A stretch of 64,000 nt of DNA from Polynucleobacter sp. UK-Kesae-W10 (GTDB lineage Bacteria; Pseudomonadota; Gammaproteobacteria; Burkholderiales; Burkholderiaceae), in NCBI RefSeq assembly GCF_018881575.1, contig NZ_JACVQB010000001.1, positions 420,986 through 484,985 on the forward strand, written 5' to 3'. Of this stretch, positions 12,960 to 17,478 are shown in pieces (the stretch's first letter is position 1; the number at the start of each line of letters is the position of its first letter). The position numbers were made by a program, and so were the translations under genes. The notes beneath the pieces were generated by a model. The model did no database searches and was not told the origin of the DNA. It worked only from the letters and a program-made list of their open reading frames with translations.

Positions 12960-14138
12960 ATGTTGAATTGGGAAGAGGAAGTTGCTCCAGCACTAGCGAA
13001 AGCTGGTCTTGCACCGCAGCCGGTTGCAGTGGAGCCACAACGTCCACAGCCAGATCAAGTGGCGATGGCGCCTCAAACTGCTGCGCCTGTAGCTGCTGCC
13101 AGTTTGTCTGGTGGTGCAGCTTTGCGGGTAAATGCTGCTGACAAGCGCGTGATTAATGCCAAGACTGACGTTAATCAGTTAGTTCCATTTAAATATAAGT
13201 GGGCTTGGGAGAAATATTTGGCTGGTTGTGCAAACCACTGGATGCCACAAGAGATCAATATGAACCGCGATATTGCGCTTTGGAAAGATCCTAATGGCCT
13301 GACAGAAGACGAGCGTCGCATTATTAAACGCAACCTTGGTTTCTTTACAACAGCCGACTCTTTAGCTGCGAACAACATTGTTTTGGGTACTTATCGCCAC
13401 ATTACTGCTCCAGAATGCCGCCAATACCTATTGCGCCAGGCTTTTGAAGAGGCAATTCACACCCATGCATACCAATATATTGTGGAATCTTTGGGTTTAG
13501 ATCAGTCCGAAATCTTCAATGCGTACCACGAGATTGACTCGATTCGCGCTAAAGATGAGTTCTTGATTCCTTATATTGACGTCCTAACCAATCCAAATTT
13601 CAAGACTGGCACCTTAGAAGCCGACCAAACATTGCTCCGTTCACTGATTGTTTTTGCTTGCGTAATGGAAGGTTTGTTCTTTTATGTTGGTTTTACGCAA
13701 ATACTTGCGATGGGTCGTCAAAACAAAATGACGGGTGCTGCCGAGCAGTATCAATACATCCTTCGCGACGAGTCAATGCACTGCAATTTTGGCATCGATT
13801 TAATTAACCAAATCAAGCTGGAGAACCCGCAGTTATGGACTTCCGCGTTCAAAGACGAGATCAAATCGATCTTCGAAAAAGCGGTCGAATTAGAGTACCG
13901 TTATGCCGAAGATACGATGCCTCGTGGAGTGCTCGGATTGAACGCTCCGATGTTCAAAGGGTACCTAAGATACATCTGTAATCGCAGATGTTTGCAAATA
14001 GGACTTGACGCGATGTTCCCAAATGAAGAGAATCCATTTCCATGGATGTCAGAAATGATTGATCTGAAAAAAGAAAGAAACTTTTTTGAGACACGCGTTA
14101 TTGAGTATCAAACTGGCGGTGCGCTAAGTTGGGAGTAG
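12960..14138 (+). CDS. nrdB: Ribonucleoside-diphosphate reductase beta subunit, class Ia
   Basis: Houses the di-iron tyrosyl radical cofactor that starts NrdA catalysis. All cofactor residues can be placed in the 392-residue protein: D133, E164, H167 and the radical tyrosine Y171 (seven residues after E164, as E115/Y122 in E. coli), then a Glu in ACVMEGLFF and Glu/His in [10 protein letters not shown]. Residues 8-55 are an Ala/Pro/Gln-rich extension not found in E. coli NrdB. AGGAG lies eight bases before the ATG. Transcription probably ends at the UUCG-loop terminator at 14285. Confidence 0.96.
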
Positions 14139-14469
14139 TTAGCAGTAAGTAAGCGCATAGCCGGCTAAATAGGAGATTAGACGGTTGGATAGTTTAAGTA
14201 GTCAGCAAAAACAGACTCAAATCCGAAAACCCTTGCTCAAGGGTGCCTGGGCTATTCTCTCTATTTTTTCCAGCACATTTAAGAAGCCGTTGTCCTTCGG
14301 GGCCACGGCTTTTTTTCCAGGATTCATTAGCGTGCAGCACTTAGCTTCAAGCCGCGCGCCGATGAATGGCTCGCTCGCCAGATCCAAAAGGTTGCAAAAC
14401 CCCGCGGAAATGAGTGGTCGGGTCTTCTTAATGTAGTTTGTACTAATCCTCACGTGAAGGAGCAATACT
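14139..14469 (+). other. Intergenic region between nrdB and the histone H1-like gene
   Basis: This 331-base gap holds the nrdAB terminator (14285-14316) and, at its right end, the AAGGAG ribosome-binding site for the histone-like gene. An 83-codon TTG-started reading frame (14185-14436) runs across it but has the terminator in its middle and no recognisable motif, so it is not called. No tRNA or other RNA gene is seen. Confidence 0.6.
14285..14316 (+). terminator. Intrinsic terminator after nrdAB
   Basis: Stem AGCCGT / ACGGCT (14285-14290 and 14305-14310) continues, after one mismatch, through GTCC / GGGC to a C-G-closed TTCG tetraloop (14296-14299). Six T follow (14311-14316). Confidence 0.88.
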
Positions 14470-14778
14470 ATGGCAATCGCCAAGAAAAAACCTGCTGCAA
14501 AGAAACCAGCTGCTAAGAAAAAAGTAGCTGCAAAGAAACCAGCTGCTAAAAAAGTAGCTAAGAAGCGTCCTGCTGCTAAAAAAGCTGCTGCTAAAAAGCC
14601 AGCTGCTAAAAAAGTAGCTAAGAAGCGTCCTGCTGCTAAAAAAGCTGCTGCTAAAAAGCCAGCTGCTAAAAAAGTAGCTAAGAAGCGTCCTGCTGCTAAA
14701 AAAGCTGCTGCTAAAAAGCCAGCTGCTAAAAAAGCAGTTAAGCGCGTAGCAAAAAAGCGCGTAGCAAAAAAAAAGTAA
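14470..14778 (+). CDS. Histone H1-like Lys/Ala/Pro-rich DNA-binding protein, apparently frameshifted
   Basis: A 102-residue protein made almost wholly of PAAKK, VAKKR and AAAKK units, like the eukaryotic-H1-tail-like nucleoid proteins of betaproteobacteria and AlgP; it should bind DNA non-specifically. Three copies of a 60-bp repeat encode the middle. The frame ends AAA AAA AAG TAA at 14767-14778 inside a run of nine A. In the -1 frame a further 38 codons of matching type continue (VSKPAAKKAG...), ending WPFPTGTRP and TAA at 14889-14891. Either a base was lost or gained in the A run (mutation or sequencing error), or the ribosome shifts -1 on A AAA AAG. The start has AAGGAG nine bases upstream. 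Confidence 0.8.
   Translation: MAIAKKKPAAKKPAAKKKVAAKKPAAKKVAKKRPAAKKAAAKKPAAKKVAKKRPAAKKAAAKKPAAKKVAKKRPAAKKAAAKKPAAKKAVKRVAKKRVAKKK
14539..14734 (+). repeat. 60-bp perfect tandem repeat, about 3.3 copies
   Basis: The 60 bases at 14581-14640 recur exactly at 14641-14700, with perfect partial copies on both sides (from 14539 and up to 14734). The unit encodes 20 residues of Lys/Ala/Pro. As 60 is a multiple of three, copy-number changes by recombination or slippage would keep the frame. Confidence 0.95.
14769..14775 (+). other. Slippery heptamer A AAA AAG directly before a stop codon
   Basis: The heptamer lies in the correct phase (X XXY YYZ) for tandem -1 slippage, as in E. coli dnaX, and the next in-frame codon is TAA. 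A 7-bp GC-rich inverted repeat GCGGGCT / AGCCCGC (14799-14805 and 14818-14824, 12-base loop) lies 23 bases downstream, farther than a typical stimulator. See the histone-like gene for the -1 product. Confidence 0.55.
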
Positions 14779-14891
14779 GTAAGCCTGCTGCGAAGAAAGC
14801 GGGCTCTGCTGTAAAAAAGCCCGCGGCTAAGAAAGCTGCACTAGCAACATCCGCCGCTGCTTGGCCCTTCCCAACTGGCACACGTCCTTAA
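14779..14891 (+). pseudogene. Out-of-frame 3' continuation of the histone H1-like gene
   Basis: In the -1 frame relative to the annotated gene this stretch encodes SKPAAKKAGSAVKKPAAKK and then AALATSAAAWPFPTGTRP before TAA. Composition and repeat units match the upstream protein, and the aromatic/proline tail looks like a genuine C-terminus. It is either the remnant of the original C-terminus or the product of -1 frameshifting. Confidence 0.7.
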
Positions 14892-14910
14892 TTGGACGGG
14901 TGTTACTAGA

Positions 14911-14937
14911 AGGGGTCTCTCACGAGACCCCTTTTTT
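14911..14937 (+). terminator. Intrinsic terminator after the histone H1-like gene
   Basis: GGGGTCTC / GAGACCCC (14912-14919 and 14924-14931) with a TCAC loop and six following T. It lies 19 bases after the -1 frame stop at 14891, which supports that stop as the original end of the gene. Confidence 0.93.
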
Positions 14938-14959: not shown

Positions 14960-15919
14960 TCAGAAGCTAAAGCCAAATGCAGTTTTAAACTGTTCGGCGA
15001 TCTGTGCTTTGCTCAATTGATGATTTTGTGGTCCCTGATGGGTGATCTTGATTGAGCCCAGCAAGCTCGCTAGACGACCGGTAGTTTCCCAATCCATGCC
15101 GTTTTCCAATCCGAATAGCAATCCGCCGCGGAAGGCATCGCCACAACCGGTTGGATCAACTACTTTGGCTGCCGGTACCGGCGGAATGGAGATGCATTTG
15201 CCGTCGCTATAGATATCTGCCCCCTCTGCGCCTTTAGTCACAATCAAGGCTTTGACACGTTCAGCAACTTTTGCCAAGCTCAGCCCCGTTCTTTGTGAAA
15301 GCATTTCTCCTTCATAGTCATTCACTGCCAAATAGCTAGCGATATCGACTAATTCCAATAATTCCGGGCCATTAAACATGGGAAGACCTTGGCCTGGATC
15401 AAAAATAAATGGGATATTCGCTTCAGCCAGTTGGTGGCAGTGCTCCCACATGCCTTGACGTCCATCCGGGGCAACGATGCCAAATTTAGCCGCCCCTTTT
15501 CCATTTTTGCTGCGCTCAGTCACTACTGCGGCCACTTGATTAAGGTGCGATTCGCCCATTGCACCAGGGTGGAATGCGGTGATTTGATTGTTTGCCTGGT
15601 CGGTGGTGATCATGGCCTGTGCAGTAAACGCATGATCAATTTGTCGAATATGGCTTGCATCGATCTTGAGGTCCTTGAGTCGATTCAAGTACGGTGCAGC
15701 ATCCCCGCCAACCGTTGCCATGATGATCGGATCTCCCCCTAGCAAGTTGAGGTTGTACGCAATATTGCCAGCGCAACCTCCAAATTCACGGCGCATGGTG
15801 GGGACCAAGAAGGCTACATTCAATATATGAATCTGCTCGGGCAGAATTTGATCGGCAAATTTGCCTTCAAAGTTCATGATGGTGTCGTAAGCGATAGAGC
15901 CGCAGATCAAGCTAGCCAT
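14960..15919 (-). CDS. PfkB-family carbohydrate (or nucleoside) kinase
   Basis: A 319-residue ribokinase-fold kinase. The C-terminal PfkB signature VVDPTGCGDAFRGG contains the catalytic Asp and anion-hole glycines, and the N-terminal GGCAGNIAYNL matches the sugar-binding signature. The substrate cannot be told from sequence; such betaproteobacterial members are often annotated as adenosine kinase- or ribokinase-like. It is the last gene of the aroQ-accB-accC-prmA cluster, 38 bases after the prmA fusion. Confidence 0.88.
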   Translation of the reverse strand: MASLICGSIAYDTIMNFEGKFADQILPEQIHILNVAFLVPTMRREFGGCAGNIAYNLNLLGGDPIIMATVGGDAAPYLNRLKDLKIDASHIRQIDHAFTAQAMITTDQANNQITAFHPGAMGESHLNQVAAVVTERSKNGKGAAKFGIVAPDGRQGMWEHCHQLAEANIPFIFDPGQGLPMFNGPELLELVDIASYLAVNDYEGEMLSQRTGLSLAKVAERVKALIVTKGAEGADIYSDGKCISIPPVPAAKVVDPTGCGDAFRGGLLFGLENGMDWETTGRLASLLGSIKITHQGPQNHQLSKAQIAEQFKTAFGFSF

Positions 15920-15957: not shown

Positions 15958-17478
15958 TTATTGAGGGTAGAGAACGTGCACACGATACCCTGCAGCATTG
16001 GGCGGCAAGACAATGGGGAGCTCTACTTGGATGATTTCTCCGGCAGGTGCACCCAGTTTTGAAAAATCGGGATGCGCTGCTTGCCAGGTATTCGGTAGCC
16101 ATTCTTGTGGCTCAAATTGAATCAACTTCACTTCTGCTTCTTCAGCATCCGTGAGAGAAACTTCTAAATTAGGGAGCAAAACTGGAACAGCAAGTCTATT
16201 TTGTATTTCAACTTGCAGCATAGATTGATTTGCAGCGCTTTTAAGGCCTTCTCGCGCGCTTTCGGGCGATAGAGTAGCTGAAGTTATTTTCCATGCAGAA
16301 AAATCGCTCACAGAGCGATTAAAGCAGCCTAGCGCCTTACATAATTTTTGATCAATCGCTTGCAGCAGTGCAAATGCTTTTACAGCAACGACAGAGGAGC
16401 TGCCATCAACCCGTGGCGCGAGTGCCGGAAGCAAGGTGTTGCGAGAAAGGTGCTCACCAAAGACAAGCAAGATCAAAAGGAGGCCGGTCAGGGCGAGGAA
16501 TTTAAGACTTTTTTTTTGAGCAGGTGCAGCAAAAGCAGTTTGTTTTTCTGCTGTTAGGGTGCCATGTAAGCAAACCCAGCCTTCACTTTCCTTCCAAACT
16601 GAGAGTGTGAGCCATTGGCTGTAAGTGGCAATAACTTCCTCTGCTTGTCTTGCAAGCACGCCAGATAAAACAATTTGACCACCAGGGCGCATCTTGTTGA
16701 CCAGTGCTGGAGCAAGCACTTGAAGAGGATTGGCCAAAATATTGGCCATCACGATGTCATATTTGGTTTCGGCTGCAAGTTCGGGCGCCCCTTCGGTCGG
16801 CAGAACAAAGCGAATGATGGTGTTGTTGATTTCTGCGTTACTTCGGGCAGCAACCATTGCTTGAGGGTCAATATCAGTGCCAACTACAGGATTGCAACCC
16901 AGTTTTGCGGCAGCAATTGCCAAAATACCTGAACCACAACCGTAATCGAGCAAACTTTGATTTGTTAAATTGGTGTGCTCTTCAAGCCAAAGTAGACATA
17001 GATGTGTAGTGGGGTGGCTACCGGTGCCAAACGCTAATCCCGGATCCACAGCCAAGCAAATAGCATTGGGATCGGTTGGAGCATCGTGCCATGAGGGCAC
17101 TACCCAGATGCGTTTACCAATCTGAATGGGAGCAAATTGACTTTGCGTCAGCCTTACCCAATCTTGCTCTTCAACCGTTTTTTCTTGGGGTGGCGCCAAG
17201 TTAAAGCCAGATTCCTTGAGAGCAGAAAGCAGTTCTGGAATAAAGTTGGCGCTTCCTGAAGCATCTATCTCTGGATTGAATAAGGCGGTAACCGCTGAGC
17301 GATCCCATGCTTGCACTTCGGGAGAAAGGCCGGGCTCTCCGTATAACGGATTTTCATCATAGCCACCAGCTGCGTCATCTTCCACCGTAACAGAGAGTGC
17401 GCCTAATTCGAGTAAGGCATCACCCAGAGGTTCGGCAGTTTCAGCAGCTACCGTGAATACGAGTTCACGATAGGACAT
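15958..17478 (-). CDS. prmA: Ribosomal protein L11 methyltransferase fused to a DUF3426 membrane domain
   Basis: Residues 1 to about 307 form a complete PrmA, which trimethylates L11 using SAM: DPGLAFGTGSHPTT, the SAM site LLDYGCGSG (177-184) and MANILANPL (244-252). Residues 326-340 are one membrane helix, and about 341-506 match the DUF3426 domain that is normally encoded by the next gene, but without its usual N-terminal zinc ribbon. The domains are joined across nine A on the coding strand (16509-16517). A -1 slip there reads AAG TCT TAA, giving a PrmA ending near residue 325. The gene sits 16 bases after accC. Confidence 0.9.
   Translation of the reverse strand: MSYRELVFTVAAETAEPLGDALLELGALSVTVEDDAAGGYDENPLYGEPGLSPEVQAWDRSAVTALFNPEIDASGSANFIPELLSALKESGFNLAPPQEKTVEEQDWVRLTQSQFAPIQIGKRIWVVPSWHDAPTDPNAICLAVDPGLAFGTGSHPTTHLCLLWLEEHTNLTNQSLLDYGCGSGILAIAAAKLGCNPVVGTDIDPQAMVAARSNAEINNTIIRFVLPTEGAPELAAETKYDIVMANILANPLQVLAPALVNKMRPGGQIVLSGVLARQAEEVIATYSQWLTLSVWKESEGWVCLHGTLTAEKQTAFAAPAQKKSLKFLALTGLLLILLVFGEHLSRNTLLPALAPRVDGSSSVVAVKAFALLQAIDQKLCKALGCFNRSVSDFSAWKITSATLSPESAREGLKSAANQSMLQVEIQNRLAVPVLLPNLEVSLTDAEEAEVKLIQFEPQEWLPNTWQAAHPDFSKLGAPAGEIIQVELPIVLPPNAAGYRVHVLYPQ
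16509..16517 (-). other. A9 tract at the prmA-DUF3426 junction
   Basis: On the coding strand the codons are CAA AAA AAA AGT CTT, containing the in-phase slippery heptamer A AAA AAA. The -1 frame stops two codons later (AAG TCT TAA) and +1 stops a few codons on. Slippage would therefore split one 506-residue fusion into a stand-alone PrmA. Confidence 0.55.

Follow-up and report, generated by a model that had tools for sequence, protein, structure and literature searches.

The window analysed here is a 64-kb stretch of Polynucleobacter DNA. Between nrdB (12960-14138) and a gene for a PfkB-family kinase on the opposite strand (14960-15919), it carries an open reading frame (ORF) encoding a repeat protein rich in Lys, Ala and Pro (Table 1). 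The product scored 42 bits against the Pfam HC2 family (PF07382), just over the cut-off of 40, which is a weak test because the score is driven by composition; the putative DNA binding of the protein rests on this resemblance to HC2. Against NF038053 (hist_H1_lk_Burk), the tail-less form, which was the one scored, reached 37 bits and stayed below the cut-off of 80. A protein search with the zero-frame product, in which the 8000 candidates with the most shared words were scored, was uninformative and gave low-complexity, lysine-rich members of unrelated families. By eye, positions 14470-14740 are built of repeats of about 20 codons.

The ORF ends with GCA AAA AAA AAG TAA, and the sequence AAAAAAGTAA is unique in the window, both strands counted. 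The -1 frame is open from GTA at 14775 to CCT at 14888 and is closed by a stop at 14889-14891. Behind it, the terminator showed a folding energy of -19.7 kcal/mol over 50 nt (z -3.2, equalled by 1 out of 200 shuffles). A preliminary description of this DNA had reported a nine-A run and a stop at the end of a histone H1-like gene, a 38-codon tail in the -1 frame ahead of a terminator, and a heptamer in the phase suited to -1 frameshifting. The coordinates held, the tail and its terminator were borne out, and A_AAA_AAG was found in the same phase across the genus.

Table 1. Features of the histone-like gene and its 3′ region, in coordinates of the 64-kb window.
Feature	Position	Strand	Basis
Shine-Dalgarno-like AAGGAG, 7 nt upstream of the ATG	14457-14462	+	Read from the sequence
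Short form, 102-residue histone H1-like (HC2-type) protein, zero-frame ORF	14470-14778	+	ORF; PF07382, 42 bits against 40
Nine-A run, possible RNA polymerase slippage site	14766-14774	+	A9 in -1 phase at 130 of 144 signature loci
Candidate slippery heptamer A_AAA_AAG, in zero-frame phase	14769-14775	+	AAA AAA AAG followed by TAA at 128 of 132 loci
Zero-frame stop TAA, adjoining the heptamer on its 3′ side	14776-14778	+	Sequence, orthologues
Second TAA, closing the +1 frame	14780-14782	+	Invariant in 44 distinct aligned sequences; lost in L264
-1-frame tail, 38 codons to WPFPTGTRP, plus stop TAA	14775-14891	+	Sequence, orthologues, dN/dS
Predicted 3′ stimulatory hairpin	14778-14810	+	Folding; pairing conserved without covariation
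Upper stem of the hairpin	14782-14789 with 14798-14805	+	Folding
Lower stem of the hairpin	14778-14781 with 14807-14810	+	Folding
Inverted repeat GCGGGC...GCCCGC, competing with the 14778-14810 hairpin	14799-14824	+	Repeat listing (- strand), sequence
Intrinsic terminator stem, followed by a T run	14908-14935	+	Folding

The tail was searched as a degenerate DNA pattern in 186 Polynucleobacter genomes and matched exactly in 169 of them, with 3 more at one mismatch. From 172 genomes, 173 loci were extracted; 172 formed the scripted set, while L264, without an ATGGC start, was read by hand. A signature, defined as an A tract followed by GTAA.[TC]AA ahead of the tail, was present at 144 out of 172 tail-bearing loci. 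To reach the tail, a -1 shift was needed at 140 of these, a +1 shift at two (L020 and L050, both A8) and none at two (L035 with A7, and L167 with A9 after an extra base), the zero frame of 12 loci without a visible start being inferred from composition. Among the 140 loci in -1 phase, the tract was A9 in 130, A8 in 9 and A10 in 1. The other 28 loci belonged to other clades and were in frame, or were fragments at contig ends; L052 and L055 were the two odd cases. This comparison of sister species, which the preliminary description had proposed, showed the A tract and the stop to be mostly kept in -1 phase and favours programming. Of the 17 genomes without an exact match, 5 matched with one or two mismatches; those of G033, G050 and G125 represent the same gene, and two loci with two mismatches (L267 and L268) failed the narrower pattern and were left uncounted. 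Of the remaining 14 genomes, three had a contig that ends within an apparent start of the gene, with ATT for ATG in one of them, and 11 showed nothing, including G134 (99% complete) and G161 (92%). Loss of the tail was not seen at any locus that reached the tail region.

A start was visible at 132 signature loci, and 128 of them were in -1 phase. All 128 end with AAA AAA AAG TAA, preceded by GCA (103), GTA (16), GCT (8) or GAA (1). The constant fit between indel length and phase in this set is partly circular, since the loci were chosen by phase, and 128 out of 132 is the fair count. Ahead of the site, the ORF spanned 49-122 codons and took 49 different lengths. In the same 128 ORFs, none of the other 412 Lys-Lys-Lys triplets read AAA AAA AAG; the heptamer by itself was not absent from the rest of the gene, since 17 of the 128 loci carried further in-phase copies of A_AAA_AAG, 19 in all. 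In a tree of the flanking sequences (flank tree, 118 loci), the three lysine codons of the site showed no synonymous step, and the other lysine codons of the tail showed from 0 to 9.

Homopolymers are prone to sequencing and assembly errors, and L052, which is sister to an in-frame locus, and L004 may be such cases. For the genus, an error of this kind is refuted and has next to no probability left, the same A-tract phase being common to 92 loci from isolates and metagenome-assembled genomes (MAGs) of many records. Specifically, 75 of these were confirmed from the start codon, 15 had no visible start and 2 were assigned otherwise; the 80 listed among them came from Polynucleobacter or from betaproteobacterial or Burkholderiaceae MAGs. 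Neither an error nor an isolated mutation accounts for the frame arrangement. Homopolymers of nine are also usual in contingency loci, and variants with A7, A8 and A10 exist, so a phase-variable switch was considered, in which replication slippage in the tract would toggle the tail within populations. Such a switch would leave mixed phases among genomes, whereas 140 out of 144 loci, with one genome per species, shared a single phase; we consider it very improbable.

No internal stop was found in the -1-frame tails of the 128 loci; in L168, which the codon alignment does not include, TTA stands at the usual tail end with no stop. The dN/dS ratio was 0.24 (pooled NG86, 99 distinct tails) and 0.30 when the nine codons used in the search pattern were removed, both being pooled pairwise values that ignore phylogeny. 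The conservation of the last nine codons is partly built in, because they belong to the search pattern. Judged from these substitutions, the data show the tail to be under purifying selection, and decay of the tail was rejected. Re-initiation inside the tail is unlikely, since an in-frame ATG was lacking in all 128 tails and alternative starts were few: 26 of the 128 had no ATG, GTG or TTG at all, and only 6 had one within the first 12 codons. The shifted-frame product was thus conserved between species and under selection, with one exception. L004, a contig-end piece from G002 without a start, has an intact A9 site and an extra A in a later run of the tail, because of which the -1 frame fails to reach WPFPTG; this extra A is either a real second mutation or an assembly error.

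Stimulators usually lie 5-9 nt downstream of a slippery heptamer. The preliminary description had pointed to an inverted repeat 23 nt downstream as a stimulator lying too far away; this is superseded by a more stable predicted stem, in which 14778-14789 pairs with 14798-14810 and the 8-bp upper stem begins 6 nt after the heptamer. In the window, this hairpin reached -17.1 kcal/mol, with z -3.86 against dinucleotide shuffles (0 out of 200 as stable) and z -2.46 against synonymous shuffles. The synonymous-shuffle z averaged -1.16 (median -1.39) across 52 distinct sequences, which, given their relatedness, is no independent test. The energy of the site window averaged -12.1 kcal/mol in 45 distinct sequences, with a median rank in the lowest 4.3% of windows from the same gene. 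The 12 in-frame A10 relatives had weaker structures on average (-2.9 to -13.7, mean about -6.7 kcal/mol), although L051, L118 and L145 also reached -10.5 to -13.7. The hairpin was weak or broken in several loci, for example L005, L018, L113, L114 and L168, and L025, L116 and their relatives, which make up a second subclade, fold into another stem. Of the hairpin cells, 80.8% were paired versus 27-46% when the structure was slid; covariation amounted to one compensatory cell, not above shuffles, and RNAalifold predicted no consensus structure at the site.

Synonymous variation was also reduced just after the site: over the first 20 columns of the alignment dS was 0.21, rising to 0.70 over the 18 that follow, in a comparison that used every column outside the search pattern. 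Synonymous steps were fewer near the site than later (Mann-Whitney p 0.006, 10 versus 14 mostly fourfold columns), the counts being entered by hand with columns 12, 25, 26, 32 and 44 omitted, of which column 12 (17 steps) runs against the result. Because of these omissions, the claim of synonymous constraint rests on the dS comparison.

The tail could be reached by a slipping ribosome or by a slipping polymerase. In the second case, RNA polymerase would add an A within A9, and ribosomes would read the A10 mRNAs into the tail unshifted. A conserved homopolymer of about 8-9 or more, as expected for such a slippage site, was found apart from L264 (A6) and the in-frame L035 (A7): the tract measured A8-A10 in the 128 loci, and the longest A run elsewhere in the ORFs was 5-7. 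According to the accessible part of PMC5009743, runs of nine A slip efficiently in vivo, and the available text of PMC4256274 provides a worked example in tssM, where an A11 tract yields two required forms. Polymerase slippage would also fit the second TAA closing the +1 frame, which was invariant in 44 out of 44 distinct sequences even though that place encodes S, T or I, and the preserved tails of L020 and L050. Lying in +1 phase, these tails are beyond a -1 ribosomal shift and reachable by a polymerase; the A8 locus L197 (Polynucleobacter hirudinilacicola) has its tail in the same +1 phase. Finally, no AGGAG-like word, the upstream Shine-Dalgarno-like stimulator of a ribosomal shift, was seen by eye in the 24 nt before the stop among the loci listed.

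One argument for the ribosome is the direction of the shift. Polymerase slippage would serve the +1 phase equally well, and yet 140 of the 142 out-of-frame signature loci were in -1 phase. Nine loci carry only A8, and neither the hairpin nor the low synonymous change after the site would be needed by a polymerase. The first A of the tract, the third base of an Ala or Val codon, was informative in part. In the flank tree (118 leaves) it changed once, versus six changes at the preceding second base, which fits polymerase slippage and counts against a pure heptamer mechanism, since the heptamer does not require that A. In the protein tree (41 leaves) the same comparison gave 2 versus 3 steps, and the flank tree included just 4 of the 8 GCT loci, so the constraint is uncertain. 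L264 (G033, 1.6 Mb) needs a -1 shift and keeps the heptamer with the tract broken to A6, which speaks against the polymerase, though several Lys-to-Glu changes, WPSPTG in place of WPFPTG and the loss of the second TAA make the gene look degraded, as under relaxed selection. Taken together, slippage by the polymerase as the sole source of the long form is possible, and we regard it as a minority explanation. The ribosome is most likely the leading machine, and both may act.

The origin of the arrangement was examined in 15 other genera of the family, in which 33 loci were read. Thirty had 142-250 Lys/Ala-rich codons open upstream in the frame of the WPFPTG tail. Two divergent loci, L338 and L345, had short single frames (71 and 56 codons), and L354 was discarded as a chance match. 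Within the genus, 12 loci carry an in-frame A10 followed by GTA at an apparently homologous place, as judged from context without formal alignment. In a FastTree phylogeny of NrdB and the kinase, where many inner nodes were weakly supported, the in-frame A10 loci included were mostly basal to the shifted clade. These basal relatives and the single open frame of other genera indicate that one A was lost. The preliminary description had set a base change in the tract against the production of two forms; the change stands, as a historical loss of one A, and the opposition falls away in that the shifted state was then kept. L051 (A10, in frame) was sister to a shifted subclade, and L003 with its relatives, a clade that is in frame and lacks an A tract, nested inside the shifted group. 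With these placements and the weak inner nodes, one origin followed by losses and two origins fit about equally. An in-frame A10 was also observed at a similar place in a related gene of the Burkholderiaceae MAG SJ678 (L232, GTAACGACAAAAG), where 157 codons form a single open frame. In L055 (and at the corresponding place in L369), the tail is put in the -1 frame by another A_AAA_AAG, which has no more than A6 and precedes TAG; the lineage of L055 is sister to in-frame loci, and the arrangement is either a second origin or an assembly error.

Such a loss could also have been merely tolerated, chance leaving a broken frame in which leaky slippage suffices and the short form has no function. Four loci inside the clade, L033, L035, L115 and L167, are in frame, L033 and L115 without the site, so the short form appears dispensable in some lineages; in-frame relatives likewise live without it, and it is the tail that is the conserved part. 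These four cases were, however, single tips in the trees. Gain of one A at a homopolymer should be a frequent mutation, and one more A from A9 would restore the same protein in a single step, and yet an in-frame A10 was found at none of the 144 signature loci. This absence, together with the lack of synonymous change in the three lysine codons across the 118 flank-tree loci, argues that the site is programmed rather than tolerated. We consider toleration unlikely, though less so than a phase switch.

We therefore favour a gene recoded by programmed -1 frameshifting, which would make a tail-less and a tailed histone-like protein, and place the probability of this reading at roughly 60%. Ribosomes reading straight on would stop at TAA and release the 102-residue short protein. 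A fraction, paused by the stop codon and by a hairpin that starts 6 nt further on, would shift back by one base on A_AAA_AAG as the only tRNA-Lys(UUU) re-pairs from AAA AAG to AAA AAA. The shifted ribosomes would continue in the -1 frame and add the 38-residue tail, giving about 140 residues in total. When all 40 tRNA matches of the genome were typed, one tRNA-Lys was found, with the anticodon UUU, and none with CUU. Slippage by RNA polymerase on A9 may also contribute some of the long form, because the protein is unchanged when one A is added. Slippage itself, its rate and the slipping machine are what we infer from these patterns.

The short form would be a plain lysine-rich DNA-binding protein and the long form the same protein with the conserved tail, and their ratio might act as a regulator of nucleoid packing. 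Since a very lysine-rich protein would be made by a slip on lysine codons that a single tRNA reads, the proportion of tail-less to tailed protein could follow the supply of lysyl-tRNA, or the rate of translation, and so couple nucleoid packing to growth, an extension that we hold to be improbable.

A_AAA_AAG slippage is established for dnaX, according to the accessible part of PMC5009743. The site described here shares with Escherichia coli dnaX, as outlined there, the heptamer, a stop close behind it, a downstream stem-loop and two products from one gene. It differs in that the shift leads to the longer product, in that a Shine-Dalgarno-like stimulator was not apparent and in its A9 tract. 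The same portion of that source describes candidate dnaX genes of other bacteria with a zero-frame stop directly after the site, as here, and the Thermus dnaX slippage gene with nearby stops in both other frames, which this locus also has. The dnaX gene of the genome studied here (L388) reads as a single open frame of 562 codons in which no run of A reaches 6; a gamma product, if made, would not come from such a site.

Another frameshift, that of cso2 (CsoS2), has reportedly been demonstrated experimentally, in a protein unrelated to the histone-like product. Like the present gene, cso2 encodes a bacterial structural protein, and the part of PMC5009743 that covers it reports frameshifting as retained in many species, predicted in 79 of 162, with a stem-loop 3′ of the site and, it appears, no Shine-Dalgarno sequence 5′ of it. 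Citrobacter rodentium tssM resembles our locus in a poly-A tract just before a premature stop and in long and short forms, both needed there; its tract is A11, polymerase slippage was shown and one further species was named (available text of PMC4256274). Unlike tssM, the histone-like gene combines A9 with an in-phase heptamer and a predicted hairpin in a whole clade of species. The HC2 and hist_H1_lk_Burk proteins share its Lys/Ala/Pro repeats and, in other genera of the family, its C-terminal tail, and differ in being encoded by a single open frame in the other genera sampled.

In the open-licence literature, searched by record lists and the opening parts of abstracts, no report was found of a frameshift in a Polynucleobacter histone-like gene. 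The word histone was absent from the main texts of PMC3711429 and PMC4066793, and the accessible part of PMC5009743 contained one mention, concerning acetylation. Recoding in Polynucleobacter is not new in itself, since chlD frameshifting is discussed with Polynucleobacter duraquae as a case in the available portion of PMC9227772.

If the reading is correct, a bacterial histone-like protein would join the chromosomal genes that yield two forms by recoding, and the genus, a common one in freshwater, would offer more than 100 natural variants of one frameshift site. By default, automatic annotation presumably calls only the short form, in which case the conserved tail would be missing from annotated proteins. 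The locus provides a direct test of the role of the WPFPTG tail and of why a broken frame persists despite its repair by a single A.

The window contains only two runs of at least eight A, both strands counted. Besides the one described above, the other is an A9 run at 16517-16509 on the minus strand, just before the DUF3426 part of a minus-strand gene (15958-17478) in which PrmA is fused to a DUF3426 domain in one open frame.
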